From Spisula solida (Eukaryota; Mollusca; Bivalvia; Venerida; Mactridae), in assembly GCA_947247005.1 (NCBI GenBank), contig OX365957.1, forward strand, positions 7,722,817 through 7,786,816: DNA of 64,000 nucleotides. Reading direction: 5' to 3'. The translations under genes were made by a program, and so were the position numbers. Each line of letters starts with the position of its first letter. Position 1 is the stretch's first letter. Under the pieces are notes generated by a model. That model saw only the letters and a program-made list of their open reading frames with translations. It searched no databases and had not been told where the DNA came from. This document shows positions 6,478-62,943 of this stretch, piece by piece.

Positions 6478-9400
6478 ATTCTGATGGAGAAGTACCAGAT
6501 CCAGTCAGTTTATATCATAGATCCAGCCAGGCTGGCTATCATCTCATCAGGTCGCTTGACTGGAGTTGTTCTAGATGTGGGCGGCAGCACTACACATGTA
6601 TCAGCTATGTATGATGGTAGGTGTCTGCACTACACATGTATCAGCTATGTATGATGGTAGGTGTCAGCACTACACATGTATCAGCTATGTATGATGGTAG
6701 GTGTCAGTACTACACATGTATCAGCTATGTATGATGGTAGGTGTCAGCACTACACATGTATCAGCTATGTATGAGGGTAGGTGTCAGTACTACACATGTA
6801 TCAGCTATGTATGAGGGTAGGTGTCTGCACTACACATGTAGCAGCTATGTATGATGGTAGGTGTCAGCACTACACATGTATCAGCTATGTATGATGGTAG
6901 GTGTCAGCACTACTCATGTATCAGCTATGTATGAGGGTAGGTGTCAGCACTACTCATGTATCAGCTATGTATGAGGGTAGGTGTCAGCACTACTCATGTA
7001 TCAGCTATGTATGAGGGTAGGTGTCTGCACTACACATGTATCAGCTATGTATGATGGTAGGTGTCAGCACTACACGTGTATCAGATATGTATGAGGGTAG
7101 GTGTCAGTACTACACCTGTATCAGCTATGGAGAGGGGTTACTACATGTACATGCAGTCTTCATGCTTTATTGAACACAGCTCTTTATATTTTTAGGTAAA
7201 AATCTCCTTCAGACAAGTGATAGTGATGGAGAAGGGTATATGTTCCCATGGAGATCTGACATGGGTGGGAATGATGTTACTAAGTACCTACAGCATGTAG
7301 TAGGCAAGAAATTGAATGTAGATGTTGACTCCTGGAATAATGGTAAAATTTGGAACATCATAATCTGTTTGTATGCACAAAGGGCCTTATTATGTTGTTG
7401 CACAGGCGTCCGTCTGTCCATAAGCAATATTGTGTCTGCTCTGTAGCTTTTTAAGCCTTTGAAGGATTTTCAAGAAACTTAACTAAAATGTTTTAGATGA
7501 TTTGCAAAGGGCATGTTCTCAAGAAACTTTACTCAATTGTTTGAGATGATGTGCAAAGAACATGTTGGGAAGAAACTTTATTCAAATGTTCGAGATGACG
7601 TGCAAAGAACATGTTCACAAGAAATTTTACTTAAATATTTGAAATGATGTGCAAAGAACATGTTCTGAAGGCAGAATTAGCTCCAATATCTTTCTTAGAT
7701 GTAAAAGGATTTATTTTGTGTACTCTCTATAAGACTGAGAATGAATGCGAGGAAACTGGATATCCAGATAATGTTCAGATTTCCTCTACATGTGCAGAGT
7801 AAATTATATAGTCTAGGAAAACTAGTTAGATTAATTGGTCACTAAAAATAACTTAATATATGTTGTTGAGAAACAGCATATAACCTGAATAAAATACAAT
7901 AAAGTACAAAACACTACTTAACTGTTGCTAAAATATGTTTGTAGAGCAACGCTTGCTAGAAGTTGAGAAGTTAAAACACAGTATAGTATCCTGGGATGGA
8001 AGTGTTGCTACGTCGTACACATTCACAGATGGTACGGAAGTTGTGATTGACGAAGACTTACTTAGATGTTCTGATGTTTTACTAGAGCCACATCTTGCGG
8101 GTAAACACTTGCTATGCCTCTCTTAGTTAAGGGTGGAATATTAACTACCTTTGTTTGCAAGTTTATGAAAAAGATCATGTTTGATGCTACTAAATGATTG
8201 TTGAATACTTTCTATGCCTCTCTTAATTTTGGGTGCAATATTTACTTTATGGTTCAGTTACGTCTGTTTTCATTTTGTTCACATCATGATTGATGCTGTA
8301 AAATTATTTTTAAAAGAGTCCACCTAGTGGCAATGTGTTACACACTACTTTTGGCAAAGTCTTTTCAAGACTTACATCATCTTGTGAAACAAATGACTAG
8401 ATTGGGGATCCGCATCTGGGGTCCAGTGGTTAGTTATTTAACATGTCCGGTGTACTATATCACCGATAGATGCGATACTACCTCTGGGTTGCAAACCTAT
8501 TCATCTCTACATGTACATTGTAGTTGGATGGGAAACTTTCTGACATTTCTGTTGACTCAATCAGGATTTGAATAAGGGACCTGATTGATCGTCTAGAGCC
8601 TGTTCCCCTTGTCCACCATGCCACCCCTTAACACCTTTAACATATTGGTAATGAAATGCAATATCATTTCATTTTGCATGTATTGTAGGGTTAAATTCAA
8701 TTGGTGTAGATAAGTTATTGAAAGATGCTATAGAGAGTTGTGAAGAGAGTGTAAAACAGGAACTATATTCTAATGTGATATTATCTGGTGGAACTACTAT
8801 GTGTAAGGGTTAGTTACATTCTTTATATTACAGTATAACAGTAAGGTCATAGTGTTCAATACAGCAATATGCCCCACCATCTACTGATGCGAGGGTAAAT
8901 AGAGGATATGTGTTTGTTTTGATTAAATATGGTTCATATCTCATCGTGAAGTGATAAAATTCCATACTTTCATGAGCGCTTATCTGGTGTCAAAAATGGT
9001 ACTATTAATGCCAAATTACTACTTTGGTTAAATTGTGTATGAATATCTTGGAGTATGATGAAGGTTTGAAAATGACTATATTGAGAACTATGCACCAAAA
9101 CATACACCAACTTATAAGAATTGGCTAACTAAGTTTATGAACCCCCTCATGACATGTTTCCATTCAGTAATATATACAGTTACATAGTGGCCTCAGTAGC
9201 TCAATGGTTAGCGCCCTTGTCGTCTAATCTGGCGACCCGGGTTCAAATCCGGGTGGGGGCACACATATATGCCTGCCATATTTCAGCATAAAGCTGACTG
9301 GCAAATAAAGGCTATGCTTGGCATCGGCATTTTTACAGACAGTTTTGTGAGTTTTTTGTAAAATTAAAGTAGCTTCTGTGGGGGCGGAGCTTATATCAGT

Positions 9401-10296
9401 CACAGTGTGAGTGATAACCAGTGACTGATATAGGTTTTATTTCGCTGATAGAACTCCATATCTCATCAGTTCGCATTAGATTAATATAGATAGTGTCCTG
9501 TCCATCTATCTGTTCGTCCGTCCCATTGAAAATGTCAACCAAAACTTTCAATTGTTTTTGCAAAATCCATCCATGCATTGCTTTCTAAATTTGGCATACC
9601 ATCATAAACACCTTACATTGTCAATGCCTTGTAAGATTATCCAGCATTGCATACAATTAGGGTCCCTAATTGACTTAGCTAGTTATTTTGGCCAAGAATT
9701 CCACTGGGGCCTGAGCTTTTATTGAAGCAGTCTTGTTTAATTCCTGATGATGACATCAACAAACACTCCATTTTCAATGTAATGAGTTCCTAAACATACA
9801 ATTGCTAAAAAGAGCTTAAATAACATACATGTAGAAGTAAAGATGAAAATGTTTTTAATCCAATTTACCATGAGTGGCAAGGTGATGAAATATTAATCTT
9901 TGTTAAAAAATGTGACTTTAAACCTATTTCAGGAGAAGCTTGTTATTGCGAGCATATTTAACAAGTTCTCCGCCATATGTCATAAGAATGTACATGAACT
10001 TAGAACCTAAATTTAACTTACTCACTGAACTTTCTCCTCAGGATTAGATGTCTTTTCTAGGTTTTACAGACAGAATTTCATGCAGTTTGAAAGATGATTT
10101 GGTGGATAGTAAAGGCTACAATGTACATGTGATAGGACCGCCTGAGAGGAGGAAATCATCCTGGCTAGGAGCATCCATCATTGCTTCTCTAGATATCTTC
10201 CCTTCATTGTGTAAAACTAGACACACTTACTATGATAAGGGTGTTGCTGAATTCTGCACATTTTCTGGACTTGAGTGTATGAAGGGTTTAGGCTGA
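6478..10296 (+). CDS. Divergent actin-related protein, five 3' exons
   Basis: C-terminal part of an actin-fold protein in exons 6478-6616, 7196-7342, 7945-8100, 8689-8808 and 10061-10296 (stop TGA). All four internal junctions are phase 1 with GT/AG sites, and the joined frame is 265 residues. The first exon aligns to the actin second phosphate loop (GRLTGVVLDVGGSTTH, against actin GRTTGIVLDSGDGVTH). GGNDVTKYL matches AGRDLTDYL; SYTFTDGTEVVIDEDLLRC matches the SYELPDGQ...RFRC segment; VILSGGTTMCKGFTDRI matches the adenosine loop; PPERRKSSWLGASIIASL matches the C-terminal region. The Asp at the actin 157 position is Gly, so nucleotide handling may differ. The N-terminal ~130 residues are not found downstream of the transposon and are probably upstream of the window. 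The protein is too divergent for me to assign to a named ARP class. The acceptor of the last exon is at 10060; a nearer CAG at 10041 would break the frame. Confidence 0.85.
6584..7135 (+). repeat. 40-bp minisatellite built on an ARP exon/5' splice site
   Basis: About 13 copies of a 40-bp unit (TCAGCTATGTATGATGGTAG followed by a GTGTCWGCACTACACATGTA-type half) start at 6601, 6641, 6681 and so on, ending near 7121. The first unit is the last part of the ARP exon ending at 6616 plus the donor GTAGGTGT. Every unit therefore carries a copy of the exon end and a potential 5' splice site. Units differ by a few substitutions (TGATGG/TGAGGG, CTGCAC/CAGTAC). Confidence 0.92.
8415..8626 (-). repeat. tRNA-headed SINE copy (family shared with 35.7, 37.7 and 52.5 kb)
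   Basis: On the minus strand it begins GGGTGGCATGGTGGAC, like the head of the copy at 37668. It contains TATCGGTGATATAGTAC and GTTAAATAACTAACCACTGG, degenerate counterparts of the conserved core TATCGGTGCTATACATCG and GTTAAAGAACCAGGG. It lies in an ARP intron. Confidence 0.6.
9187..9330 (+). repeat. tRNA-derived SINE
   Basis: The head has an A-box-like TAGCTCAATGGTTAGCG and a B-box-like GGGTTCAAATCC flanked by a nearly complete T-stem and a GC-rich acceptor-like end. It is followed by a tail with CATAAAGCTGACTGGC. One mismatch in the T-stem and the extra tail argue for a SINE rather than a working tRNA gene. It lies in an ARP intron. Confidence 0.65.
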
Positions 10297-10320
10297 AACC
10301 TCAGTTTCAGAATCTGACAT

Positions 10321-11200: not shown

Positions 11201-11205
11201 ATGTT

Positions 11206-11490: not shown

Positions 11491-11587
11491 ATACCCAATT
11501 TCATTTTTCAAAACCCAAACAACATTGAAACTGGGAGATAAAATACCCAACAGAATGCTAGCTTATATCCTGTGTGGAAAAGCTGGC

Positions 11588-16140: not shown

Positions 16141-18295
16141 CTGAGGAAAATCATCCAGTTGAAATCGGTAGGGGGTATTGAAATGGTGTTGTCCGTCCGT
16201 CCGCCGTCAGTCCGTCTGTCTATACGCACCCACTTTATTTAGATTATATTCATTCCATTGCTTACGGGGTGCAAACTGTTGCTTATGGGGTTGAAAGAAC
16301 AAAAGAAAACCCCACAACGTCAAGTCAGGGAGTCCGTCTGTCTGTCTGTATGCGCCCACTTGACGTTGTGAGGTGTGGAACAATAGGCTATATTTAGATT
16401 CTATTCATTCCGTTGCTTACGGGGTGCAAAATGTTGCTTATGTGGTTTAACAAATAAAAGAAAGAACAAAAGAAAACCCCACAACGTCAAGTCAGTGAGC
16501 CTGTCCGTCTGTCCGCAGCCATTTTTCTGTAACTTCCTGGTAGGATTTCATGAAACTTGAAATAAATGTGAACTAGCATACTGGGATGATGCCTGTCAAG
16601 TTTTTTTCTGATCTATAAAAAACTCTGGTTGCCATGGCAACCGATTGAAAAAACTTTAAAAAATCATAGAAAATCAACCACAGGCCAGAATTCAAAATAG
16701 TTTCACAGAAATAGTTTTTGGGTGACCTTCTTACACAAGTGACATTTTTATCGTGATTCGTCAAAAAACATGGCCGCCAGTGGGTGGGGCTCTATTTGCC
16801 CTATATATCAATAGAGAAGTCTTTAAAAATCTTCTTCTAAAAGTACTAGTTGGAATTTATTATGAAGTATTAACAATGTTCTTTTGATGATCCTCTATAG
16901 AAATAGCGAAAAGAAATCTATAAAGTCTGGTTGCCATGGCAACCGATTGGAAAAACTTATAAAAAATCATAAAAGTCACTGGTCAGATTTGAAAATAGTT
17001 TTACAGAAATACTTGTTGGGTGACCCTCTTACAAAAGTGACCTTTTTAGCTCACCTGTCACAACGTGAGCTTTTGTGATCACTCTTCGTCAGTCCGTCCG
17101 TCTGTCCGTCGTCCGTCAGCAATTTGTTTGTGTAGACACTAGAGGTCACAATTTTGACCTAATCTTAATGAAACTTGGTCACAATGATCATCTCAACAAA
17201 ATCTAGGTCAAGTTCGATATTGATTTATCTGGGTTCAAAAACTAGGTCACATGGTCAAATCATTGAAAATTCTTGTGTAGTCACTAGAGGACACACTTTC
17301 GACCTAATCTTCATGAAACTATGTCACTATGATCATCTCATCAAAATCTAGGTCAAGTTTGATATTGGGTCATCTGCAGTAAAAAACTACGTCACAAGTT
17401 CAATTCTTGTGTAGTCACTAGAGGTCACCATTTTAGCCTAATCCTTATGAAACTTGGTCACAATGATCAACTCAACAAAAGCTAGGCAAGTTCGATATTG
17501 GCTCATCTCATCAAAGTCTAGGTCAAGTTTGATATTGGGTCATCTGGAGTAAAAAACTACGTCACAAGTTCAATCCTTGTGTAGTCACTAGAGGTCACCA
17601 TTTTAGCCTTATCCTTATGAAACTTGGTCACAATGATCAACTCAACAAAAGCTAGGCAAGTTCGATATTGGCTCATCTGGGGCCAAGAAGTTGGTCACTA
17701 GGTCAAATCACAGGGCTTGCGTGCACTGCTAAGACAGGTGAGCGACCTAGGGCCCTTTGGGCCCTCTTGTTGTCATGATTCATCAACAAACATGGCCGCC
17801 AGTGGATGGGGCTCATTTACCCCTATATATAAATAGTGAAGTCGTCTTATCTGCATTTCTGGATTTCATTACAAATTGGTAACAATATTCTGTAAGTACT
17901 CCATTCTATAAATAGCTAAATAATTGAAATTCATGCAGAACCATAACAACAGAAATCAAAGTCCTGTTTGATTATGGTTCTTTTAGTTCAATATGCACAG
18001 ATGAGCGATACAGGGCCATCTTGGCCCACTTGTTTATTGGTCAATTTTCCTAAGAGTTACTGCCCTAGGTTTATTGACTAATTTCGTCCACTAACTAGCG
18101 TGTAGAATTTCATGAAATATGAACAATCTTACTGTGATGATGCCTGTCAAGTTATTTTTATTGGTCAATTTTGTGTTGAGTTATTGCTCTTGATTTATTG
18201 ACAATTGTTTTCTGATGGAAGCTTACATTCCAAACTGTGCAATGAAATACTTATAACCTGTAGGCGGGGGATATCAATTCAACGAATTTGCTTGT
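16141..18295 (+). mobile_element. Repeat B (GGTAGGGGGTATTGAAATGG type), interrupted by repeat A
   Basis: Starts with ...ATCGGTAGGGGGTATTGAAA and GTCCGTCCGTCC. It contains repeated GGTTGCCATGGCAACCGATT and CATGGCCGCCAGTGG segments and ends ACCTGTAGGCGGGGGATATC. A second copy lies at 21467-22625. In this copy a complete AGCTCACCTGTC element is inserted at 17046-17772. The segment 16200-16500 also holds two CCCCACAACGTCAAGTCAG copies. Confidence 0.7.
17046..17772 (+). mobile_element. Repeat A (AGCTCACCTGTC...GACAGGTGAGC) inserted in repeat B
   Basis: About 725 bp with inverted ends: TTAGCTCACCTGTC at the left, GACAGGTGAGCGACC at the right, plus the near-palindrome AGGGCCCTTTGGGCCCT at the right edge. 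The interior has several units of about 150 bp carrying GAAACTTGGTCACAATGATC. It splits the AAAGTGACCTTTT / TCATGATTCATCAAC sequence of repeat B, which is continuous in the second B copy. Non-coding. Confidence 0.75.
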
Positions 18296-18346
18296 TGTTT
18301 ATTTATTTATTACTCAACCCTTTGGTGTAGGTAAACCCGTCATTAC

Positions 18347-18625
18347 TGACTAGTTTTGACGAACCCCTTTTTGTCCCCGACTCAAAAATTTCACATGTAA
18401 TTCGTCTGGAATAGTATCGTCAGTTAGTGGTCTGTCTTCTAGCGATGATTTTAGAGGAGCCAATTGTGGCTGGAAATCTCGACCAGATACATCGAAAGTG
18501 ATATCAGAAATGACACCATTACGTAAATCATTGGTATATGTTGATCTCATCGGAGTGATGTCTAAATCCGTGGGTGGTGTGAAGTTTGATCGTCCATCGT
18601 TGTGACGGGAACGCTCAACTTCCAT
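18347..18625 (-). CDS. Unidentified hydrophilic ORF
   Basis: A 91-residue minus-strand frame starting at an ATG (MEVERSRHNDGRS), acidic and polar with no membrane segment. It lies just 3' of the YqaJ-like fragment on the same strand and could be its last exon or a separate piece. No family recognised. Confidence 0.3.
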
Positions 18626-18892
18626 GATGTGGGCTGTTCATATAAGTCAGGACATTTTCACTCTTATTTCAAGTCCACCTCGTTGCATCCGCAGATACTG
18701 CTGATGCGTTATTCCTGTAATGAAAATATATTATTATTGGTAATTACCGATCACCTTTAAACAATAAAATCATATAAGACTATACGGAAAACAAATCATA
18801 AGTTGAATTTTCATACATGCAATTGCAGATCTATTGACAGGCAAGTTTATGATATAAATAATTAGATTATGAAGTGAAATAGTTATTGAAAC

Positions 18893-19437
18893 TCATTATC
18901 TTTGATAGGTCGACCAAATAATTTTAATACATGTCAAATACTGAACCTGTTTCATATTCTCAGTCCCAACAAAAAAGTCACACCCCTCCAAACCAGTCAC
19001 TTCAATCTGAGTATGATTCCTCTTTAGTTTTTGAAAACCTAAATTGTCTTTGCTGAGACAAGGAGCCTCTATTACACATTTTATTTCTAATAGTCTGAAA
19101 GGTGACACACATGTTGGTTTATAGACCTTTCTGTCTGGACTTGCTGCAATCCATGGTGCCCAGTAGTTGACAACCACACCAGATGGGTTCAAGTTAACCA
19201 GTTCACTTTCTGCATGGTAATATGCATTGGCTGTTCTCGGTTCACATGTTATACACCTTCTCATGGCCGCAGTTGTAACATGCCTTGTATCTCTCAGTCG
19301 TTTTGCCAAGGTGTCTGCATTATTTCGTGATGCAGTAATCCGATGGCGTCTTATGTTGTGCCAAAGTGAACTTTGAGTTTGAAGTCTCGTCTTGTACTTA
19401 AATTTAATATCTGTTTTACTGAGGTGCAGTCCTTCCT
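18893..19437 (-). pseudogene. YqaJ-type (lambda-exonuclease-fold) nuclease fragment
   Basis: On the minus strand the open frame runs from a stop near 19437 to 18896. It has HRITASRNN (the usual R.TAS opening of YqaJ domains), NYWAPWIAASPDRKVY (the GASPDG-like block with the metal-binding Asp) and LLEIKCV (the EIKC motif), then GLEGCDFFV near the end. YqaJ-like proteins are frequent in invertebrate genomes, often in mobile-element-derived genes. A QVQGQL-type segment expected between the last blocks appears to be missing. Neighbouring same-strand coding remnants at 20.0-20.8 kb contain stops, so I call it a decayed gene. Confidence 0.65.
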
Positions 19438-20039
19438 ATTTATTTTCTTGTTCATGCATTGGAGCAGAATTGTAGGACTGTGTCATGACATTGCTTACTG
19501 GCAAGTTAGGGACAGCCACTCCATTATGTTCATAACAAGATCATTTTCTAGCTTCTGTTTTGTAACTTAACACAGAAGCCACAGGGGAAGGTACAAACAT
19601 TGATCAATGTGGGGGTCATCATGAAGTATCATCCCGATATTATTGTCTTCTGTTGTGTTAATCACATTTCTCAAGAAAGGAGAAGTTTGTGTAATTGTCC
19701 AATTAATTGTAGTTTGGGCAGACATTGGACTCCTCTGGTCTTTCTTCTGCTGCTTTGCTCTTTTCTATGTGTATCACTTCCATCTCCGTATCTTTCTCAT
19801 CACCACCGGAGACTACCCAGTTGTGTACAGGGAGTTACATATATAACTGAGAGAGGTATTGAGATTGATAAATGATGAGATGTTCTTGGTGGAACTATTA
19901 CACCCACTTTTTGTCGGTAGTACTTGGTGTGTATAATGTTTCTTTTGCGTTTGAGTAAACATCTACATGATGCATTGAAATATCACCATTGACAATACTT
20001 TAATGGTGCGCTAGATAGATAGAAAATAAAAAATAAATA

Positions 20040-20765
20040 AAAAAGTAATGGACAACAGTTCTCTCCAATCCAAATTCTGCTTCTTCTGTACTAGGAGCCC
20101 AAACAAATCAAAATTGTCAACATCAGAATCTGACACATCTTCATTGAAATGTAAAACTCATTCTCTTAATATAGATAAAGGTACATTTTCCTCAACATCA
20201 GAGTCAAAACTTAATACAGGACAAAATCCACTAAAGTCTTTCAGCTGAACTGGCATGAATAAGATCTACCTTAAGAGAATATTTGATAACCCAAAATATT
20301 CATCACACTGAAAAAGACTTTGCAGACTGATAAATTGCTTTAAATGTACATAGTTCTTCAGAGCCTTGTCGTTTCGTTAAACTAGCTTTTCCATTTTCAG
20401 GTCAGTGCAGTCCTTCATTCTGTGTGAGTTGAAGTGAAAGACATAGAAACTGTTTCCAAATTTCATCATTGCTATCATTCATCAACAAACTGTCTAAATG
20501 AATAACTTTCCTACAGCACTGATGGCATCTTTTATTATTTAATAAAAGATAGCATTAGGAGGAATTTTTCGCACAACCTCTAAAATAGATGTACCGACGC
20601 TGTAATCATGTGTCATCCATGTTCATCAATACTTCCTTCCTGTCAGGATCATCCACAGCTTTGTATGTCTCTTCAAGATATTTGTGTTTCTCTTCTGGTT
20701 CACCTTTTTTCTCAGTAAGTGATGGTGCCCACTGTAAACATCCGTAGCTTAGTGTCTCTAATTGT
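20040..20765 (-). pseudogene. Decayed coding remnants upstream of the YqaJ fragment
   Basis: Minus-strand pieces look coding but are broken by stops: 20640-20765 (LQWAPSLTEKKGEPEEKHKY, ending in a stop after NMDDT), about 20400-20540 (DSLLMNDSNDEIWKQFLCLS), and 20040-20250 (FSGFCPVLSFDSDVEENVPL, a stop, then DVSDSDVDNFDLFGLLVQKK). Order and strand fit the N-terminal part of the YqaJ-like gene. Family not recognised. Confidence 0.4.
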
Positions 20766-20771
20766 CATTTT

Positions 20772-22900
20772 TAGCTCACCTGTCACTGACAGAGTGAGCT
20801 TTTGTGTTCACTCTTTGTCCGTCGTCTGTTGTCCGTCGTCCGTTAACAATTTGCTTGTGTAGACACTAGAGGTCACAATTTTGGCCTAATCTTTATGAAA
20901 CTTGGTCACAATGATCATCTCAACACAATCTAGGTCAAGTTCGATATTGGGTCGTCCGGGGTCAAAAACTAGGTCACAAGGTCAAATCATAGAAAAACAT
21001 TGTGAAGTCACTAGGGGTCATAATTTTGACCTAATCGTTATGAAACTTGGTCACAATAATCATCTCAACAAAATCTAGGTCAAGTTCGATATTGGGTCAT
21101 CCGGGGTCAAAAACTAGGTCACAAGGTCTAATCATAGAAAAACATTGTGTAGTCACTAAAGGTCATAATTTTGACCTAATCTTTATGAAACTTGGTCACA
21201 ATGATCATCTCAACAAATTATAGGTCAAGTTCAATATTGGGTTCTCCGCTGTCAAAAGCTAGGTCACAAGGTAAAATCATAGAAACCCCTGTGTATTCAC
21301 TAGAGGTTATAATTTTGACCTAACCCTTATGAAATTTGGTCACTACGATCATTTCAGCAAGATCTCGGTCAAGATTTATATTGGGTCATCGAGTGTCAAA
21401 AACTAGGTGACAAGGTCAAATCACAGTATAGTCACTAGAAGTCACAATTTTGGCCTAATATTTTTATCCCCGCCGATGAAATCAGTAGGGGGGGTATTGA
21501 AATGGCGTTGTCCGTCCGTCCTTCCGCAGCCATTTCTCTGTAACTAGCTGGTAGAATTTCATGAAACTTAAACTAAATGTGAACTAGCATACTGGGATGA
21601 TGCCCGTCAAGTTTTTTTCTGATCAATAAATAACTGGTTGCCATGGCAATCGATTGGAAAAACTAAAAATTCATAAAAATCAACCACTGGCCAGATTTCA
21701 AAATAATTTTACAGAAATAGTTGTTGGGTGACCTTCTTACAAAATTTACATTTTTATCATGATTTGTCAAAAAACATGGCCGCCAGTGGGTGGGGCTCAT
21801 TTTCCCCTATAATATAAATAGTAAAGTCTTTAAAAATCTTCTTCTAAAAGTACTGGTTGAATTTCATTATGAATCATTAACAATGTTCACTTGCTAATCC
21901 TCTATAAAAATAGCTAAAATAATTGTAATCTATAAATTACTCTGGTTGCCATGGCAACCGATTGGAAAAACTTTTAAAAATTCATATAAAATCAACCACT
22001 GGCCAGATTTCAAAATAATTTTACAGAAATACTTGTTAGGTGACCCTCTTACAAAATTGACATTTTTGTCATGATTCGTCTAAAAACATGGCCGCCAGTG
22101 AGTGGGGCTCGTTTACCCCTATATATAAATAGTGAAGACTTTTATCTGCAGACTGGATTTCATCACAACTTGGTAACAATATTTCTTGAGTGCTCCATTC
22201 TATCATTCTATGAATAGCTAAATAATTGAAATTCATGCAGAACCATGGCAACACAATCAAGGTCCTGTTTGAATATGGTTCTTCTAGTTCAATATGCACA
22301 GGTGAGAGATACAGGGCCATCTTAGCACACTTGTTTATTCAATTTGGTCAATTTTCCTTAGAGTTACTGCCCTTGTACTGCCCTTGGTTTATTGACTAAT
22401 TTCATCTAATAACTAGCGGGTAGAATTTCATGAAACTTAAAATAAATATGAACAACTATACTGTGATAATGCCGGTCAAATTATTTTTATTGGTCAATTT
22501 TCTGTTGAGTTATTGCCATTGATTTATTGACAATTGTTGTCTGATGGAAGCTTACATTCCAAACTGTGCAATGAAATACTGATAACCTGTAGGCGGTGGA
22601 TATTAATTCAACGAATTTGGTTGTTGAAACTTTGTCACAATGATTATTTTAACACAATCTAGGTCAAGTTTGATAAGGGTCATCCTTGTTGAAAAATAGG
22701 TCACTAGATAAAATCGTATGAAATCCCTTTGTAGTCACTGGAGGTCACCATTTTAGCCTAATCTTTATGCAAATTGATCACAATGTTCATATCTCAACAA
22801 AATCTAGGTAAAGTGTTAGGTCATTAGGTCAAATCACTGGGCTTGCATGCACTACTACGACAGGTGAGCGACCTAGGGCCCTTTGGGCCCTCTTGTTTTA
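20772..22900 (+). mobile_element. Repeat A copy interrupted by repeat B
   Basis: Left end TTTTTAGCTCACCTGTCACTG, right end CGACAGGTGAGCGACCTAGG, same ends as 17046-17772. Between about 21467 and 22625 a copy of repeat B is inserted (from CCCCGCCGATGAAATCAG to TGTAGGCGGTGGATATTAAT). Repeat A then resumes with AAACTTTGTCACAATGATTA. Internal A units of about 155 bp repeat four or more times. ORF 22069-22320 is a by-product. Confidence 0.75.
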
Positions 22901-26799: not shown

Positions 26800-27080
26800 C
26801 CAAAATGACGAACAAATTACTAACAAATCATGTTTTTATCATTCATTAATGTCATTTGTTAGTCATTCATTTAATGAAAGATAAACAAATGCTTGTTTTA
26901 TGGAAGTGATTTGTTGTACATTCATTTAAATCACGTAATTTGCTTATCACTCATTGAACTTGTATCGTTCGCAGATGTAATTTGTTAGTCATTCATTGGA
27001 CATAAACTCCTAGATTCGAGATTTGTTTATCACTCATTGAACTTGTATCTTTCGCAGATGTAATTTGTTAGTCATTCATT
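26800..27080. repeat. TTTGTTAGTCATTCATT repeats
   Basis: TGTCATTTGTTAGTCATTCAT occurs at about 26850, 26978 and 27060, with ATTTGTTTATCACTCATTGA and the inverted GAACAAATTACTAACAAATC nearby. The period between the last two copies is about 85 bp. Similar words form the array at 30.2 kb. Confidence 0.55.
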
Positions 27081-27084
27081 GGAC

Positions 27085-31477: not shown

Positions 31478-31773
31478 GTCAGTCAGTCAGTCAGTCAGTC
31501 AGTCAGTCAGTCAGTCAGTCAGTCAGTCAGTCAGTCAGTCAGTCAGTCAGTCAGTCAGTCAGTCAGTCAGTCAGTCAGTCAGTCAGTCAGTCAGTCAGTC
31601 AGTCAGTCAGTCAGTCAGTCAGTCAGTCAGTCAGTCAGTCAGTCAGTCAGTCAGTCAGTCAGTCAGTCAGTCAGTCAGTCAGTCAGTCAGTCAGTCAGTC
31701 AGTCAGTCCGCCCGCCCGCCCGCCCGCCCGCCGTCCGTCCGTCCGTCCCGTCCCGTCCCGTCCCGTCCCGTCC
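31478..31773 (+). repeat. Compound microsatellite GTCA, CCGC, GTCC, GTCCC
   Basis: About 57 pure GTCA units (31478-31708) run into CCGC units (to 31732), then GTCC units (to about 31747), then five GTCCC units (31745-31769). All three frames are open (SVSQ repeats), but this is a consequence of the four-base period. No gene. Confidence 0.97.
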
Positions 31774-40919: not shown

Positions 40920-41610
40920 TAATTCATTGATCATAACGTGAATACGAATGATGTTTCAAGTAAGCCGGATATTATTCAAACAGATTCAATGACATGCAGT
41001 GCAAATAGAACACCACAAACTCGGAATTGTGTTGTATTTCTTTTTTTGCAAAGATTGCGTAATTGTACAAGCTTAATATATAATTTTTATGCAATGTTAA
41101 TAGATATATGGTGCGAACATATCAACGTAATCCTCAAACTTTCTATTAATATAGTTTAATAATTTAAAACAGTTGTTCTTGAGTAGAATATTTTACCTTC
41201 GGTATAACGTGAAACACCAAACTAATCGCCTACATGACACGACTTCTCGGGGAGAAATTGATATATGCCACACAAGAAACTTGTAATACCATTATACATG
41301 TATAAAGGTCGAGACCCTAGTGATTCGATTCGCACTATAAAGTTACCGTGAATATAGAATTTTAAATGTATTGTCAACAATGTTGTCTACTTAAATTGCA
41401 TAATACTTATCATTTTTTTTAGATTTGATTTAATTTAGATACTTTTAACACATGACGTAGTTGATGTCGACGCATGCGCCCTAAACCGATTCATCATTCT
41501 TAAGTGGTTAAATAAACTGACATTTATCGCGATTGTTCACAATAATTACCATATGTTAATTATATTGTATTGTAATGAGCTAAACTTTAAAGTGTAAACA
41601 TACATACATT
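40920..41610. other. Intergenic region upstream of the esterase gene
   Basis: AT-rich with no repeat I recognise. It should contain the promoter of the gene that starts at 41617, but I see no convincing TATA box or initiator to mark. The ORF 40938-41159 has no supporting features. Confidence 0.35.
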
Positions 41611-41616
41611 TCTGAT

Positions 41617-44136
41617 ATGGATTCCGTTTACATTTGTTTGTTTGTCTTAGTATGCGGTGTGGCAAGGATACTTTCAGAGCAGGTAAAGGTGTCATCACCG
41701 ATAGGTGACATAGTTGGAATCAGGGACGATTTCATCTTTGCTGGAACTACGTATAAAGTACGAAAGTTTCTGGGTATTCCATACGCCGAAAGCCCAGCTG
41801 GAGAAAATAGATTTACCAAGCCGGCAAAGAAAGCTCCCTTTTCTGACGATTATTACGCAGTCGATGACGGAATGTCATGTGTACAAAATACCAAACTGTA
41901 TCCGGGATTACACATGCTTCTAGCTGATGAAGATTGTCTCAACTTGAACATTTACGTTCCAGACAGTGCGTCAGTTAATAATACCAAGACGGTGATGGTT
42001 TTCATCCACGACGGCGGGTTTCAGATTGTCTCACAGATATTTTATCCTGCCGAAGCACTGCCTGCTCTATATGATGTTGTCTATGTGACATTAAACTACA
42101 GACTCAATGTTTATGGTTTTCTTGCGAGTAAGAAACATGGTTTGAGTGGTAACTATGGACTCTGGGATCAACACATGGCTATACGGTGGATACATGATAA
42201 CATAGCATCGTTCGGTGGAAATCCTGATCAAGTGACGTTGTTCGGTATATGGGCAGGTGCTGCCTCGGTGATGTACCAAGCTTTATATGACGGTAACAAG
42301 GGCTTATTTAATCGTATAATACTTCAAAGTGGAGTAGTTGGTGCCTACTGGTCATATACAAGAGATCCCGACTTAACTTTCAATAACACTGTAAAATCAG
42401 TTGGGTGTGAACGTGAAGAAACGACGGAAGTGATGTCATGTCTACGCCAAGCAAACCTCAGTTTTGACGAAGCTTATACGTCAACATTTGCGGTCGATGG
42501 TATCTATTTACCCGTACAGGACGGGGAGTTTGTCAAGTACGATCCTGCCGACCTTTATAATATCAAAAACCCATCGTCAGTTGAAGCACTTCGTAACTTT
42601 GCTTCTGTTGATATTATTAATGGATTCAACAGCCACGAAGGGTTTATCATGTTTAAACGGTCACTTGGCGCGCCTACTTATTCGGATGTCCCTAATCTTA
42701 CAAGTGGACTCACTTTATCAGATTTTAACACGTATGTTGACAATTACGATGCCTACGCTGGGAATCTATTTAACAATGACGTACGTACGTCCGTTATTCA
42801 TAAATATACCGATTGTGACAATCCAGGAGACGCCATAGCAAGACGAACCAACCTACTAGATTTAATATCCGACACAAGTATTCATGTTCCAGCGATACAG
42901 GCATGTACTGCGCATGCGCTAAGATCTAAAGATCGACACACTTACATGTACAGGTTTGAATATCGTCCTGTAAGTTACAGCAAAGAACCAGAATGGGAAT
43001 TACCTGAATGGGTGACCGGAGCTATCCATGGCGATGAAAAGCGTTTTATGCTAGGCTTTCCATTATTCGCGATGCAGGGAACCGATCCTGCTTTCGTTGT
43101 GCCGAACAGTGAAATTGAATTGTCAAAGTTAATGATGAAATTCTGGACACAGTTTGCAAAATTAGGGTAAGAATTTTTAATCAACAATTTAGGTTTGAAT
43201 CCTTGTCCGTAGACAATGCATTTCTGGATATATTATTTTTAATTTAGAACTTGAACTGAAGTTTAAAAAGCACCGAGTTACAAAGTGAGCTTTTTTATGA
43301 ATCTTCGTCCGTCCGTTCACAATTTGCTTGTAAACTGTGTAGGCATTAGTATAGGTCAATTTTTTATTGGGTCATATGTGGTCAAAAACTAGGTCACTAG
43401 GTTAAATAATAGAAAACCCTTGTGTATACACTACAGGTCATGATTTTGGCCTAATCTTTATTAAACTTAGTCACAATGATCATCTCAATAACATCTAGGT
43501 CAAGTACGACATTGGGTCATCCTGGGTCAATAACTTGGTCACTATGTCAAATCATCGAAAAACCCTTGAATTATCACTGAAGGTCACAATTCTGGACTTA
43601 TCATTATGAAACGTGGTCACAATAATCAGACTTTTTGGGAAAACCAATAAAACTAAAATTTGCATAGTGATTTTAGAAATGTTGTAAAACAGGGAAGGTA
43701 AAAATCAACATTTAACTTTTACATCCGTTGTATTCATTTTTCGGGATAATTTGTTTTTTTAAAGCGTTTTATACACATTTATTTTTAAAAAAAATATACT
43801 AAGCTAAGTATTGCCTATTTTCAATTATTTTACCTTTATTTCAGAAACCCAAATGGTGACGATACGTCAAATGCTTGGCCCGAGTATGAACCGGGAAACG
43901 GAGAGTACATCATATTGAAAACTGATTCGGTCCCGTTTTCGGTCGGAGATCACTTCCGGGATGAATATGTTTACTACTGGAGTACGGTATATCCCAGACT
44001 TGTTGCCGACATGAAGGGAGCTGATAGACAAACTAACTGTACCTACGTAACTGGAAGAGCGACATCCAACGTGTCCCACCATAGCTATATAATACTGTAT
44101 TACTTTGTAGTGATGGCACTCAAACTTAAATCATAG
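41617..44136 (+). CDS. Cholinesterase-like (carboxylesterase type B) protein lacking the catalytic Ser
   Basis: Two exons, 41617-43166 and 43845-44136, joined in phase 2 across a GT-AG intron (ATTAGG|GTAAGA, TTATTTCAG|A), give 613 residues, normal for the family. A signal peptide (residues 1-20) is followed by the type-B esterase fold: FLGIPYAESP at 51, EDCLNLNIYVP at 105 with the conserved Cys88-Cys107 pair, FIHDGGF at 129, WDQHMAIRWIHDNIASFGGN at 183, and VTLFGIWAGAASV at 206. The nucleophile motif GESAG is GIWAG here, with Trp at position 212. The acid (Glu341 in NSHEGF) and the His (His471 in AIHGDE) are present. The oxyanion GGG is DGG. The C-terminus ends in a hydrophobic stretch (IILYYFVVMAL), so a GPI or membrane anchor is possible. 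It is probably a non-enzymatic adhesion or binding protein, like neuroligin-type relatives. Confidence 0.93.
43272..43645 (+). repeat. Repeat A fragment in the esterase intron
   Basis: Contains AGTGAGCTTTTTTATGAATC, TTCGTCCGTCCG and the AACTAGGTCACTAGGTTAAA-type units of repeat A, without its characteristic ends. It fills part of the intron 43167-43844. Confidence 0.65.
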
Positions 44137-53992: not shown

Positions 53993-54831
53993 ATCCTCTA
54001 TACAATGCATCTATGCGATGTTTAACGTGGGTGATTGAATTTGACATCAATAGAGTTGCACGTTGTAAACATAATGTCACATTGATAAGTGATGGCACCG
54101 TTCATCAGTATAGGTTCGAATCCCGCCATAAGTGCAAACTATATAATGTAAATGCGTGTTATATATGTATAATTATGTATAAAATTGGTGTATATTGCCT
54201 CATAGAAAATGATAAAAAAAATACCAAGTTAAATCTATTTTCAGACATACGTCCGTTCAACCGACTGTACAATAACCCCTCCCCGGTCAATGAGTAATAA
54301 GTCGACTGTTACACTCGGCCCCGATGAAAGCCACAGCAAATTGACTTTTGACCCACACAGGTACATTCATACCCCTGAGTAAGATGGAGCATTGTGAGTT
54401 TCTGCTCAGAGAAAACATATTTATAACAGTATTCATTGCTGAGTATAATTTCGTACATGTACTACATTGTTAAATATACAATAATTAATATACCAATAAA
54501 TAATTTGCATGATTCAAAATTGTACGTATAAATCGATCATTCAGGTCAGTCACTTGTTTACATAACATTATGTACACAAACATTGCAATTTCCATTATTA
54601 ATATCTTATATGAATATATATTATGTGTATTAGTATGTTGCTTGGTGAATAAGGTACCGTATTGGTTTTCACTGACTTTGTGTTTAAAACAATACAAAAT
54701 TTGATACAATGTTATGATAATTTATTGCAATGTTTGTATACAAGTGCCAGACCTGAACAAATGACCTATAATATTTGTCATAATAGTCTCTATCCAGTTC
54801 AGATTAAAATATCACATGGTAGTCACAATGA

Positions 54832-55016
54832 CTACCATATCTTACACTTGTTGTTTGGATTCATAAAACTACCATATCTGACACTCGTTGTTTGGATTCA
54901 TAAAACTACCATATCTGACACTCGTTGTATGAATTCATAAAACGACCATATCTTACATTTGTTATTTGAATTCATAAAACTACCATATCTTACACTTGTT
55001 ATTTGGATTCATAAAA
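54832..55016 (+). repeat. 37-bp minisatellite, five copies
   Basis: Units CTACCATATCTKACACTYGT + TGTTTGGATTCATAAAA, exact period 37. ORF 54662-54940 runs through it and is spurious. Confidence 0.9.
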
Positions 55017-55019
55017 GAT

Positions 55020-56190
55020 CCATCAGGACAGTTCCAAGCTCTTGAAAATTCCTTCATGTTTTGCAAAGGACCATACACCCTGAAATAGTTGTATGAAACA
55101 CTTCAATGAAATGTATAATATGTCCATTTGAATACTTTACAACAAACACACAACAGTTTGTGTACTATATCACACGGGTATGCGTTGACGCGGGATACGC
55201 CAGGTTTTATCACCTATATACTTCATCACTCATGTCGATTCCCGAAGGTATTATGCTCCAACTGACACGTAATTTTAGACACACTCGTTTTGTTTCGCAA
55301 GAAAATTTAAATTGCAATCTGTATGTACACGTTCACGTTCCTTTCGCAACTTTCCTATCGTTTCAGTTTTTTCTGCCAGCTTACTGTTTTATCAAAACAC
55401 TTACGGAAGTATTAAACTTACGTTCAAATTTGGATTATTAATTATTCTTTAAAACCTACACATTTGGGACAGATATTGGTTGCAGGAATTCGCTCACTGA
55501 ATAAAAAGTAATATTTAACAACCCTTTACCACAATTTGTATCTGTTGAAAGAATTAAACGTATAGGAAATATAAATTTGAACATATGTTTACGGTTTCCG
55601 TATGTGCTTTGATAAAAATAGTACCCTGTCAACTACCAGCGACCAATCTAAGAAAACATGTGTTGAAACATAGGCTGGGTTTTGGCGCTAACTGTAGTCT
55701 AGTCTAGTTCGATTATCTGCGCATGTCTGATTTCTTCAGGCGCCAAACCTATAATAGCGTTTGGGTAGTTTCAATATGGCACAGATGAAACTAGAATAAA
55801 AGCAAACTAGTGATAGTTCGACCATAGTTTTACCATTGAAGGTTTTCGCGGTCTCTAGTTGAACTATAGTAACCCCAGTCAGCACTAAAACATAGCTATA
55901 TTGACTACCATACATAACGTCTACACTACCTGAACGGGGACAGACTTAATCGTCCTCTGTATATCGCTTGTATGGCAGTCTCCTTCCGATAACTAGAGCA
56001 CATTGTCTGTGAAAACAGAAACATTGAGGAAGCATGAGAAATAGTTTATTCATCATATGTGCAGGTGTAAAAAGCCACAATGTCATGCGCGCGTGCTAGC
56101 AACACATTGACAACCTAATAAAAGGTGCCCGTAGAATACTCTTATACCCCACTTTGTCATTGTGACACACATTTAAGCCTAGGTCACACT
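55020..56190. other. Non-coding stretch
   Basis: No exon recognised. The final exon of the minus-strand M13 gene (beginning with a VWC-type segment) could lie in or beyond this stretch, but I found no match. Weak inverted words (AGTCTAGTCTAGTTCGATTA and CTAGTTGAACTATAG) occur around 55700-55870. Confidence 0.35.
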
Positions 56191-56981: not shown

Positions 56982-57080
56982 TTGGGCAGCACTGATGAAG
57001 AACAGTTGTTCCGGTGTGTACTTTACTCCAGGAAGACTTTTCTCAACATCACCGGTAGAAGATAGCCAAACTTGATAGCC
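56982..57080 (-). CDS. M13 (neprilysin/ECE-like) peptidase, exon with LPG..YTPEQLFF
   Basis: A 33-codon exon in phase 0 at both ends (TCTACAG|GGCTATCAA; GCCCAA|GTACGT). It encodes GYQVWLSSTGDVEKSLPG followed by VKYTPEQLFFISAAQ, which matches the M13 metallopeptidase segment AYxxW...LPGLxxTxxQLFFLxFAQ just after the zinc-site motif. M13 enzymes are membrane ectopeptidases that cleave small peptides. The preceding exon is at 62878-62943, so the intron is 5.8 kb and mostly tandem repeats. The following exon (VWC to the C-terminus) was not found in the window. An open frame continues from the upstream minisatellite straight into this exon. Confidence 0.85.
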
Positions 57081-60000
57081 CTGTAGAGTAGTATATATAG
57101 TATGAGAGCAAACTTGATAGCGCTGTAGATTAGTATAGAGTATGAGAGCAAACTTGATAGCGCTGTAGATTAGTATATAGAGTATGAGAACAAACTTGAT
57201 AGCGCTGTAGATTAGTATATATAGTATGAGAGCAAACTTGATAGCACTGTAGATTATTATATAGAGTATGAGAGCAAACTTGATAGCGCTGTAGATTAGT
57301 ATAGAGTATGAGAGCAAACTTGATAGCACTGTAGATTAGTATAGAGTATGAGAGCAAACTTGATAGCGCTGTAGATTAGTATAGAGTATGAGAGCAAACT
57401 TGATAGCACTGTAGATTATTATATAGAGTATGAGAGCAAACTTGATAGCGCTGTAGATTAGTATAGAGTATGAGAGCAAACTTGATAGCGCTGTAGATTA
57501 GTATAGAGTATGAGAGCAAACTTCATAGCACTGTAGATTATTATATAGAGTATGAGAGCAAACTTCATAGCACTGTAGATTAGTATGAGAGCAAACTTGA
57601 TAGCGCTGTATATTAGTATATAGAGTATGAGAGCAAACTTGATAGCGCTGTAGATTAGTATGAGAGCAAACTTGATAGCGCTGTATATTAGTATATAGAG
57701 TATGAGAGCAAACTTGATAGCGCTGTAGATTAGTATAGAGTATGAGAGCACACTTGATAGCGCTGTAGATTAGTATATAGAGTATGAGAGCAAACTTGAT
57801 AGCACTGTAGATTAGTATAGAGTATGAGAGCAACCTTGATAGCACCGTAGATTATTATATAGAGTATGAGAGCAAACTTGATAGCGCTGTAGATTAGTAT
57901 GAGAGCAAACTTGATAGCGCTGTAGATTATTATAGGGTATGAGAGCAAACTTGATAGCGCTGTAGATTAGTATAGAGTATGAAAGCAAACTTGATAGCAC
58001 TGTAGATTAGTATAGAGTATGAGAGCAAACTTGATAGCACTGTAGATTAGTATATAGAGTATGAGAGCAAACTTGATAGCGCTGTAGATTAGTATAGAGT
58101 ATGAGAGCAAACTTGATAGCGCTGTAGATTAGTATAGAGTATGAGAGCAAACTTGATAGCACTGTAGATTAGTATAGAGTATGAGAGCAAACTTGATAGC
58201 GCTGTAGATTAGTATAGAGAGTATGAGAGCAAACTTGATAGCACTGTAGATTAGTATAGAGTATGAGAGCAAACTTGATAGCACTGTAGATTAGTATAGA
58301 GTATGAGAGCAAACTTGATAGCACTGTAGATTAGTATAGAGTATGAGAGCAAACTTGATAGCGCTGTAGATTAGTATAGAGTATGAGAGCAAACTTGGTA
58401 GCACTGTAGATTAGTATAGAGTATGAGAGCAAACTTGATAGTACTGTAGATTAGTATAGAGTATGAGAGCAAACTTGATAGCGCTGTAGATTAGTATATA
58501 GAGTATCAGAGCAAACTTCATAGCGCTGTAGATTAGTATAGAGTATGAGAGCAAACTTGATAGCGCTGTAGATTAGTATAGAGTATGAGAGCAAACTTGA
58601 TAGCACTGTAGATTAGTATATCGAGTATTAGAGCAAACTTGATAGCGCTGTAGATTAGTATAGAGTATGAGAGCAAACTTCATAGCGCTGTAGATTAGTA
58701 TATAGAGTATGAGAGCAAACTTGATAGCGCTGTAGATTAGTATAGAGTATGAGAGCGAACTTGATAGCGCTGTAGATTAGTATATAGAGTATGAGAGCAA
58801 ACTTGATAGCACTGTAGATTAGTATAGAGTATGAGAGCAAACTTGATAGCACTGTAGATTATTATATAGAGTATGAGAGCAAACTTGATAGCGCTGTAGA
58901 TTAGTATGAGAGCAAACTTGATAGCACTGTAGATTAGTATAGAGTATGAGAGCAAACTTCATAGCGCTGTAGATTAGTATAGAGTATGAGAGCAAACTTC
59001 ATAGCGCTGTAGATTAGTATAGAGTATGAGAGCAAACTTCATAGCGCTGTAGATTAGTATAGAGTATGAGAGCAAGCTTGATAGCGCTGTAGATTATTAT
59101 ATAGAGTATGAGAGCAAACTTGATAGCGCTGTAGATTATTATATTGAGTATGAGAGCAAACTTGATAGCACTGTAGATTAGTATAGAGTATGAGACCAAA
59201 CTTCATAGCGCTGTAGATTAGTATATAGAGTATGAGAGCAAACTTCATAGCGCTGTAGATTAGTATAGAGTATGAGAGCAAACTTGATAGCGCTGTAGAT
59301 TAGTATAGAGTATGAGAGCAAACTTGATAGCACTGTAGATTAGTATATCGAGTATTAGAGCAAACTTGATAGCACTGTAGATTAGTATATCGAGTATTAG
59401 AGCAAACTTGATAGCGCTGTAGATTAGTATAGAGTGTGAGAGCAAACTTCATAGCGCTGTAGATTAGTATATAGAGTATGAGAGCAAACTTGATTGCGCT
59501 GTAGATTAGTATAGAGTATGAGAGCAAACTTGATAGCACTGTAGATTAGTATATAGAGTATGAGAGCAAACTTGATAGCACTGTAGATTAGTATATCGAG
59601 TATTAGAGCAAACTTGATAGCGCTGTAGATTAGTATAGAGTATGAGAGCAAACTTCATAGCGCTGTAGATTAGTATATAGAGTATGAGAGCAAACTTGAT
59701 AGCGCTGTAGATTAGTATAGAGTATTAGAGCAAACTTGATAGCACTGTAGATTAGTATATAGAGTATGAGAGCAAACTTGATAGCGCTGTAGATTAGTAT
59801 AGAGTATGAGAGCAAACTTGATAGCGCTGTAGATTAGTATAGAGTATTAGAGCAAACTTGATAGCACTGTAGATTAGTATATAGAGTATGAGAGCAAACT
59901 TGATAGCGCTGTAGATTAGTATATACAGTATGAGAGCAAACTTGATAGCGCTGTAGATTAGTATAGAGTATGATAGCAAACTTGATAGCGCTGTAGATTA

Positions 60001-60095
60001 GTATAGAGTATGAGAGCAAACTTCATAGCGCTGTAGATTAGTATAGAGTATGAGAGCAAACTTGATAGCGCTGTAGATTAGTATAGAGTATGAGA
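57081..60095 (-). repeat. 3-kb minisatellite of ~40-bp units derived from the M13 exon's 3' splice site
   Basis: Roughly 70-75 units of GAGAGCAAACTTGATAGCRC + TGTAGATTAGTATAGAGTAT (40 bp; 42 bp with an extra TA; about 33 bp where the TAGAGTAT part is missing). Read on the minus strand, each unit contains ATCTACAG|CGCTATCAAGTTTG, that is, the splice acceptor and the first ~13 bases of the M13 exon at 57080. The degenerate unit at 57062-57105 is the true junction. The many LQRYQVCSHTLYTN ORFs are translations of the array. Confidence 0.95.
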
Positions 60096-60097
60096 GG

Positions 60098-61297
60098 ATG
60101 TCCGTACCCACTGCTGCTATACCACGTGACTTAAACATCACTAAAGGATACAACTCTAAGACGAAAATGTTTTCTAAAGCACCCTGTGAAACCGTTGAAA
60201 AGAAGACGGTTGAAACTCCGAAGGTTTCACAGGGGGCTGGAAAAACAGCCCAGCTGCTGAAAAAGATCCTATATTTCGTGGAAAGCAAATCATTTTCCCC
60301 TTAGAATGGAGTATGTTTCATAGAGATCGATGTAAACATACAATACTGTCGGCTATTTTTGTCTTTAGTGATGTCAAAGTATGTCGGCTATTTTATCTTT
60401 AGTGATGTCAAAGTCTGTCTGCCGGCTATTTTTATCTTTAGTGATGTCAAAGTCTGTCTGTCGGCTATTTTTATCTTTAGTGATGTCAAAGTCTGTCGGC
60501 TATTTTTATCTTTAGTGATGTCAAAGTCTGTCGGCTATTTTATCTTTAGTGATGTCAACGTCTGTCGGCTATTTTATCTTTAGTGATGTCAAAGTCTGTC
60601 GGCTATTTTATCTTTAGTGATGTCAAAGTCTGTCGGCTATTTTTGTCTTTAGTGATGTCAAAGTATGTCGGCTATTTTATCTTTAGTGATGTCAAAGTCT
60701 GTCTGCCGGCTATTTTATCTTTAGTGATGTCAAAGTCTGTCTGCCGGCTATTTTATCTTTAGTGATGTCAAAGTCTGTCGGCTATTTTATCTTTAGTGAT
60801 GTCAAAGTCTGTCTGCCGGCTATTTTATCTTTAGTGATGTCAAAGTATGTCGGCTATTTTATCTTTAGTGATGTCAAAGTCTGTCTGCCGGCTATTTTTA
60901 TCTTTAGTGATGTCAAAGTCTGTCTGCCGGCTATTTTATCTTTAGTGATGTCAAAGTCTGTCGGCTATTTTATCTTTAGTGATGTCAAAGTCTGTCGGCT
61001 ATTTTATCTTTAGTGATGTCAAAGTCTGCCGGCTATTTTATCTTTAGTGATGTCAAAGTCTGTCGGCTATTTTATCTTTAGTGATGTCAAAGTCTGTCGG
61101 CTATTTTTGTCTTTAGTGATGTCAAAGTCTGTCGGCTATTTTATCTTTAGTGATGTCAAAATCTGTCGGCTATTTTATCATTAGTGATGTCAAAGTCTGT
61201 CGGCTGTTTTTGTCTTTAGTGATGTCAAAGTCTGTCGGCTATTTTTGTCTTTAGTGACGCCAAAGGCATGTGGTATTGCTACACTGCAACCGATCCG
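60098..61297 (+). mobile_element. Second member of the 30.7-kb element family, expanded by a minisatellite
   Basis: The left end CTGCTATACCACGTGACTT and the right end GGTATTGCTACACTGC are related to the CAGTGTAGCAATACCACGTG ends of 30717-31049. The core GGTTTCACAGGG...CTGAAAAAGATCCTATATTT is homologous. It also has a local hairpin, CCCTGTGAAACC against GGTTTCACAGGG. Between core and right end, the TCTTTAGTGATGTCAAAG sequence has been amplified (60355-61260). It abuts the end of the 3-kb array directly. Confidence 0.75.
60355..61260 (+). repeat. 34-38-bp minisatellite inside the element
   Basis: About 26 units of TCTTTAGTGATGTCAAAGTC + TGTCGGCTATTTTA, some with an extra TGCC (CTGTCTGCCGGC). 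The last unit grades into the element's right end (TAGTGACGCCAAAGGCATGT), so the array was probably seeded from the subterminal sequence. ORFs 60359-60583 and 60762-61013 are by-products. Confidence 0.93.
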
Positions 61298-61471
61298 TTT
61301 GAATGAGTAGGAACCATAATTATGTTCAAGAGAATTTATGTTTACATAGGTACACAATCCTTGACATCTAGTCTAAGACAACATCTTTATTGTATCTAAG
61401 GTAAGATAGTCCTAATATGGAAGTCACAATTAACGGACTCTGCACTTCACTGAATTATAGACTACAGTAAC

Positions 61472-62070: not shown

Positions 62071-62220
62071 TACGGTGCCCCTGAAGTGATAAATGCGACA
62101 TTTATTTTATTCCGTTTAAACGGTTAAGCTGTTTAAACAGCAAAAAACGGGATAATAAACCGTTGTAGTTTAAACGACATAAAATAAATGTGGCATTTGT
62201 CACTTCACGGTGGCTCCGTG
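62071..62220. mobile_element. 150-bp foldback element with three GTTTAAAC palindromes
   Basis: TACGGTGCCCCTGAAGTGAT...ATTTATTTTAT faces ATAAAATAAATGTGGCATTT...GTCACTTCACGG. The centre contains CCGTTTAAACGG, CTGTTTAAACAG and AGTTTAAACGA. It would fold almost completely. Intronic to the M13 gene. Confidence 0.75.
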
Positions 62221-62540
62221 CATTTGAAATAAAGATCGTTACAGCAAAGAACTTATGATGTATTTAAGAAACAGTCTTTACTTAATGAAAAGGGAGGTAA
62301 ACCAATTCGTAATTTTATTTTGTGCACTGCTAGTCTTCTGGCAGATATATTTGAACAAACAGATAGAACTGTTGAACATTAGGACATGGCAAACACACCC
62401 ACTTTTAAATAGTGTCTAACAAGATGTCCTGTAAAAAGGACAGGCAGCTTGTTTTCTATCAAATGAGCTGCCTTAATATTAAAGCCGTTCAGACTGTATA
62501 TATCAAGTTGTGTGTGTTTAGTTGTTTCTATTTAATGTAT

Positions 62541-62880
62541 TACCTTAAATGCCTGTCTCATAGCGGCACTGTCTGCTATATTACCTTAAATGCCTGTCTC
62601 ATAGCGGCACTGTCTGCTATATTACCTTAAATGCCTGTCTCATAGCGGCACTGTCTGCTGTATTACCTTAAATGCCTGTCTCATAGCGGCACTGTCTGCT
62701 ATATTACCTTAAATGCCTGTCTCATAGCGGCACTGTCTGCTATATTACCTTAAATGCCTGTCTCATAGCGGCACTGTCTGCTATATTACCTTAAATGCCT
62801 GTCTCATAGCGGCACTGTCTGCTATATTACCTTAAATGCCTGTCTCATAGCGGCACTGTCTGCTATATTGCCCTTACCTT
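62541..62880 (-). repeat. 41-bp minisatellite derived from an M13 exon and its 5' splice site
   Basis: Units start at 62541, 62582, 62623, 62664, 62705, 62746, 62787 and 62828, then after a short insertion at about 62875, where the unit merges with the true exon. On the minus strand every unit reads ATATAGCAGACAGTGCCGCT + ATGAGACAGGCATTTAAG|GTAATA, the 3' part of the exon at 62878-62943 with a 5' splice site. Confidence 0.95.
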
Positions 62881-62943
62881 AAATGCCTGTCTCATAGCGG
62901 CACTGTCTGCTATATTGCCCATTAATGTACTTTCTCCATTTAT
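62878..62943 (-). CDS. M13 peptidase-like exon carrying the ENIAD-type motif, altered
   Basis: A 66-nt exon, phase 0 at both sides: acceptor TTTTGTAG|ATAAATGG, donor TTTAAG|GTAAGG. It encodes INGESTLMGNIADSAAMR followed by QAFK. In M13 enzymes this block reads ..NG..TLGENIADNGG.R.A, where the Glu of GENIAD is the third zinc ligand and the Asp supports the catalytic His. Here GE is MG and NGG is SAA, while Asp is kept. If the exon is read correctly, zinc binding would be weakened and the protein may be a non-catalytic M13 homologue. The reading is supported by both neighbouring exons being in the same phase. Confidence 0.8.

Follow-up and report, generated by a model that had tools for sequence, protein, structure and literature searches.

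The human interferon-induced 6-16 gene contains a minisatellite of short units that supplies splice donors, and these donors are used alternatively. Closer to the arrays described here are the "mirages" of amphioxus, tandem duplications of exon-intron boundaries reported from Adh3, the globin genes BflGb6 and BflGb9, PGBD5 and troponin C, with units of 10-72 base pairs (bp) in Adh3 and 150-160 bp in the globins (PMC3087553, PMC3902484). As these reports present them, mirages include donor and acceptor types, often keep their splice signals and are unstable in length, in Adh also somatically, and their origin is called unclear (PMC3087553, PMC3902484); reverse transcription-PCR results suggest regular splicing (PMC3087553). 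Tandem duplication of a proto-splice site is further described as able to yield a new intron, in work that also treats intron sliding and the near intron pairs of Drosophila (PMC2891723, PMC4974935). Here we analyze boundary arrays in a bivalve, Spisula solida, within a 64,000-nucleotide stretch of its 932-Mb genome (C15:7722817-7786816, hereafter the window) that carries an actin-related gene and a gene for a neprilysin-like protein of the M13 family. The open-access literature, searched with mollusc terms, turned up no boundary array from a mollusc. We argue, at a probability of about 0.6, that such arrays reflect frequent and random repeat birth, followed by survival where the extra copies stay outside the protein.

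Arrays were detected with Tandem Repeats Finder (TRF), and junctions were assigned by homology, using Pfam, phmmer, paralogue tblastn and an alignment to neprilysin. As summarized in Table 1, one array repeats the donor of an exon in the actin-related gene, while two others bound the same M13 intron, whose flanking exons are IADSAAMRQAFK and GYQVWLSS. The exon end followed by GTAGGT is kept in 13/14 units of the actin-related array, AAG/GTAA in 9/9 units of the M13 donor array, and the acceptor AG in 74/75 units of the M13 acceptor array. The original prediction, which had read all three as repeated splice junctions, was borne out by TRF edges differing from its own by at most 36 bases and by the homology of the junctions; its statement that two unrelated genes are involved was likewise right, but two of its three arrays share one intron.

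Table 1. Boundary arrays and neighboring exons in the window (a slash marks a junction)
Feature	Position	Strand	Basis
Actin-related gene exon (VVLDVGGSTTHVSAMYD/G), phase 1 end	6478..6616	+	Pfam Actin 1.9e-8; phmmer alignment to actins crossing the junction; Actin family match in genome search
Donor array, 32 exonic nucleotides + GTAGGTGT, 40-bp unit x 13.6	6585..7129	+	TRF, unit parsing
Following exon of actin-related gene (G/KNLLQTSDSD)	7196..7342	+	phase fits; phmmer aligns part
Stop-codon array, FMNPNNKCKIW-stop + 1 nucleotide, 37-bp unit x 5	54831..55016	-	TRF, paralogue tblastn
Last M13-like exon, ends KCKIW-stop	54980..55079	-	Pfam Peptidase_M13 7.8e-6
M13-like exon TMCSSYRKETAIQAIYRGRLSLSPF(R), array-free ends	55930..56006	-	paralogue tblastn
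M13-like exon GYQVWLSSTGDVEK to FFISAAQ	56982..57080	-	paralogue tblastn, neprilysin alignment
Acceptor array, TACTAATCTACAG (intron end) + first 14 exonic nucleotides, 40/42/33-bp units x 75	57067..60096	-	TRF, unit parsing
Array within the doubly flanked M13 intron, 34 bp x 26, off exon ends	60346..61265	-	TRF
Donor array of exon 62878..62943, exon end + GTAATA, 41-bp unit x 9.1	62538..62916	-	TRF, unit parsing
M13-like exon INGESTLMGNIADSAAMRQAFK	62878..62943	-	paralogue tblastn, neprilysin alignment
M13-like exon GRKYDQYGQLNPWW to GGLT, array-free ends	63599..63732	-	Pfam Peptidase_M13 4.1e-8

The junctions on which these arrays sit appear to be real and are well supported by homology. When seven M13 exons were joined at their exon-proximal copies, 198/198 residues aligned to neprilysin (7.9e-46) with a single one-residue gap. 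Among the 8 exon or open-reading-frame pieces scanned against Pfam, two M13 exons matched Peptidase_M13 (Table 1); taken singly, neither the second actin-related exon nor the two short M13 exons adjoining the arrays matched a Pfam family. The two conserved segments that flank the doubly arrayed intron are also split by an intron in 10/11 sampled paralogues (L026-L030, L032, L033, L034/35, L041 and L042), and lie together in one exon of paralogue L040 on C6.

We next consider what the spare copies would do to the reading frame. None of the 33 spare donors keeps it: in the actin-related array only the first donor does so (0/13 spare donors), and the M13 donor arrays gave 0/8 and 0/12. Likewise, a single one of the 73 spare acceptors in the 75-copy array, at +42, keeps an open frame. 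The spare copies are decoys rather than backups. Since nearly all of them would introduce a stop codon or disrupt the frame, we infer that persistence of the arrays depends on splicing at the copy next to the exon.

The frequency of boundary copies was compared with a background rate. M13 paralogues and myosins supplied exon ends that were picked irrespective of arrays, and together with 22 ends of the window's M13 gene these total 196; 15 ends of the actin-related gene and an esterase gene were kept outside this number. Because an array begins as a single founder unit, the expectation per junction was taken as founder bases per base, not as array coverage. The founder-weighted control gave a rate of 3.85% (379/2972 points in repeats); a narrower control, which under-counts array margins, gave 2.05% for the paralogues, 1.32% for the myosins and 1.63% for the window gene; and a margin-corrected control gave 3.8%, 2.2% and 3.8%, respectively. 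Exon ends in the main counts are the ends of homology hits rather than exact junctions and were tested at offsets of 12 bp or less, and the ends of L042, a near copy of L030, are not independent of those of L030.

The 264 kb sampled contain 100 arrays of period 15-200, covering 10.8% of the sequence. Tandem boundary copies were present at 9/196 fresh ends, compared to 6.5 expected (P = 0.21, margin-corrected), and at 8/196 (P = 0.33) when the doubtful case in L028 was dropped. That case, a 17-bp array beside a donor, begins inside the intron and is therefore no true boundary copy, though it is among the 9; L028 also bears a degenerate 23-bp array near an acceptor. The first 160 ends yielded 6 local boundary copies, with 101/855 control points within repeats, and 20 further ends, for which flanks of only ~250 bp were available, yielded none. 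Paralogues and myosins alone stood at 6/174 versus 5.7 expected under the margin-corrected control, and the myosins at 1/59 versus 0.78 under the narrower one. No boundary copy was found at 11 other exon ends of the actin-related gene or at the 4 esterase ends tested. Taken together, these counts leave a general preference for exon boundaries unproven, a two-fold preference being compatible with them.

All three kinds of boundary, donors, acceptors and stop codons, carry copies. In paralogue L029, a 42-bp x 33 array with a different unit lies on the acceptor of the same M13 intron; the AG at that place is missing from 17/17 parsed spare units, and 0/66 YAG sites (Y, pyrimidine) in the array give an open frame. 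Two-copy duplications affect an acceptor in L033 (76 bp), a donor in the myosin locus L050 (82 bp, with GC instead of GT in the second copy) and the stop-codon region in L032 (98 bp), and L026 has a diverged acceptor copy at 144 bp (22/26 bases) that a second detection method did not recover. A related unit, TTGGTCAATACTGACACACCTT, is arrayed at L026 2939-3163 and 6445-6867 and at L045 1475-2205, as well as around the M13 acceptor in L026. Locus L037, upstream of the window, contains two further arrays of the M13 gene: one copies the donor of exon VFPAAVLQTPIYQQDTAG in 13 units of 45 bp, the other copies the acceptor of the exon that follows, YMSYGSLGY, in 4 units of 36 bp. Boundary arrays are thus carried by 5/24 homology-identified ends of the window's M13 gene, from an incomplete exon set (18 + 6 ends, with two exons among the 18 placed by eye). 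A 34-bp array at L037 6418-6896 was rejected as a start-codon repeat, as M13 exons flank it on both sides, and was counted as intronic.

We favor random birth because boundary copies are near expectation, all boundary types are hit, exons joined through the exon-proximal copies align to neprilysin almost without gaps, and amphioxus offers a precedent. Minisatellites would arise often in this genome, where arrays make up ~11% of the sampled sequence, and a tandem duplication that by chance straddled a coding boundary would leave one complete copy on the exon. The surplus copies would land in the intron or behind the stop codon, leaving the protein unchanged as long as the exon-proximal copy is spliced. 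Duplications inside coding sequence, in contrast, would mostly be purged by selection, such that exon-derived arrays would survive on boundaries because exon-internal ones are mostly removed. Those that survive would then expand as other minisatellites do. The suggestion in the original prediction that duplicated splice sites are tolerated is supported.

Several results weigh against random birth. The window's M13 gene has boundary copies at 3/22 fresh ends versus 0.84 expected (P = 0.05 margin-corrected, 0.005 under the narrower control) and may be enriched above average. The paralogues reach 5/101 versus 2.07 (P = 0.058) under the narrower control, with its under-counted margins, and their homologous boundaries are copied too, in L029 at the acceptor of the doubly arrayed intron and in L032 at the stop codon. 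Donor-like motifs, scored with splice-site matrices written from general knowledge, were found at p<=0.05 in 8/56 fresh array units versus 2.8 expected (P = 0.006), although 2/8 are boundary arrays already counted, 4/8 belong to a single locus, and p is 0.07 in the combined test. Moreover, among arrays of at least four copies, units of 35-45 bp, a range named beforehand in the original prediction, characterize 7/7 boundary arrays versus 4/31 others, and 4/4 boundary arrays when the three given there are set aside (Fisher P = 0.0013). The similarity of unit length claimed there therefore holds beyond background, and a recount of array periods refuted the idea that ~40 bp is simply the genome's usual repeat period. 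The many-copy boundary arrays have units of 36-45 bp; 5/7 belong to the M13 gene and 1/7 to its paralogue, whereas the two-copy duplications elsewhere are longer, and the ~40-bp rule may be local. Random birth does not explain this narrow unit length, and the recount led us to lower its standing and to raise that of two other readings. According to one of these, arrays arise or grow preferentially at exon boundaries in at least some genes, owing to a mechanism coupled to transcription or splicing with a bias for ~40-bp units. This would accommodate the unit length, the 5/24 arrayed ends of the M13 gene, the location on exon ends of 5/9 arrays of at least four copies in that gene's 29 kb, the two introns with arrays at both ends, and the narrower-control result for the paralogues. 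We nevertheless consider it rather unlikely, given the margin-corrected counts for paralogues and myosins, the copy-free ends of the actin-related and esterase genes, the lack of an acceptor-motif excess in fresh array units (0/56), and two-copy boundary duplications of 76-144 bp instead of ~40. The preference of repeat birth for splice junctions put forward in the original prediction is thus not shown in general, but the local enrichment in the M13 gene and the unit length speak for a possible local one.

The original prediction had also proposed that duplicated sites are retained by selection as a buffer for splicing. Nearly every unit of the window arrays does retain its GT or AG, and in L037 a copy seems to stand in for a lost AG, yet the spare copies are not equivalent to the one beside the exon, as their frame effects indicate; many other unit columns are as invariant as AG, the L029 array has lost its AG from every parsed spare unit, and the L050 copy has lost its GT. 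Buffering is accordingly very improbable, and the overall interpretation given in the original prediction is partly supported, with tolerance and unit length on its side, a general preference not shown and buffering disfavored. We also asked if the M13 gene is a decaying pseudogene whose boundary arrays are merely unconstrained. HEITH and GENIAD are the neprilysin motifs that hold the zinc ligands. In the neprilysin alignment they are replaced by IISMF and MGNIAD, respectively, and the HExxH exon of the gene (L037 1380-1520, minus strand) reads GIISMF, with loss of the catalytic motif; moreover, one exon has an acceptor without AG. However, the seven C-terminal exons are open, with matching phases, up to a canonical C-terminus, and relaxed constraint alone does not place arrays on boundaries. 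We therefore regard decay as improbable, and on sequence grounds the product is probably an inactive relative.

The second reading raised by the unit-length recount holds that exon boundaries of the M13 gene are birth hot spots for ~40-bp arrays, and that copies within the arrays are starting to take over from the original splice sites. We view it as possible, albeit on the doubtful side. The 36-bp unit in L037 comprises 12 codons and is in frame and open; CTTTCAG stands in each of its three upstream copies, CTTTCCG in the copy next to the exon. Since exon YMSYGSLGY lacks an AG of its own, a 36-bp repeat copy must be its acceptor, if it is spliced at all. Were this reading true, the takeover would let the exon, and with it the protein, grow or shrink in 12-codon steps, and splice-site minisatellites would be actively moving junctions and altering protein length.

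Other features of the window were recorded as well. An open frame of 938 residues at 2350-5163 (+ strand), with Transposase_21 and DUF4218 domains, is probably a DNA transposon, and the carboxylesterase gene at 41584-44133 (+ strand) has a long exon (Pfam COesterase 4.2e-108). Similarly worded tandem units of ~134-170 bp recur at 17128-21423 and at L034 6030-6580, L035 6243-7084 and L038 1103-1588, and may form a dispersed tandem family. A 42-bp array at 26935-27081 has the strongest acceptor-like motif among the window arrays (TTGTATCTTCGCAG, p 0.025), with no exon identified there, and 31478-31708 is a perfect 4-bp GTCA array of 57.8 copies.

If confirmed, the arrays would show the amphioxus structure in a further animal, at far higher copy numbers, and would provide a natural test of how the spliceosome settles on one acceptor out of 75 that are nearly identical. 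In the 36-bp acceptor array, a splice junction would be seen to shift into a minisatellite, and the common unit length of ~40 bp would hint at how such arrays arise.

Compared with the known systems, the donor arrays resemble the 6-16 minisatellite in that each tandem unit carries a donor, unlike it in that the spare donors here would break the frame. As in proto-splice-site intron gain and sliding, exon sequence with splice signals is tandemly duplicated and may be a source of new or moved junctions; in contrast to intron gain, the M13 intron is old, being present in 10/11 sampled paralogues, and we therefore reject its creation by the arrays. The likeness to amphioxus mirages is closest. The original prediction knew of no described mechanism and overlooked these mirages, but the globin paper itself calls the mechanism that generates them unclear (PMC3087553, PMC3902484). 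Instability and splicing were examined in amphioxus, and our comparison draws on sequence features. In both animals minisatellite units span the exon-intron boundary, in 5' and 3' types and in several genes of one genome, with AG or GT in many, but not all, copies. What sets the present arrays apart, besides the animal itself, are copy numbers of up to 75, arrays at both ends of one intron and a version that repeats the stop codon.

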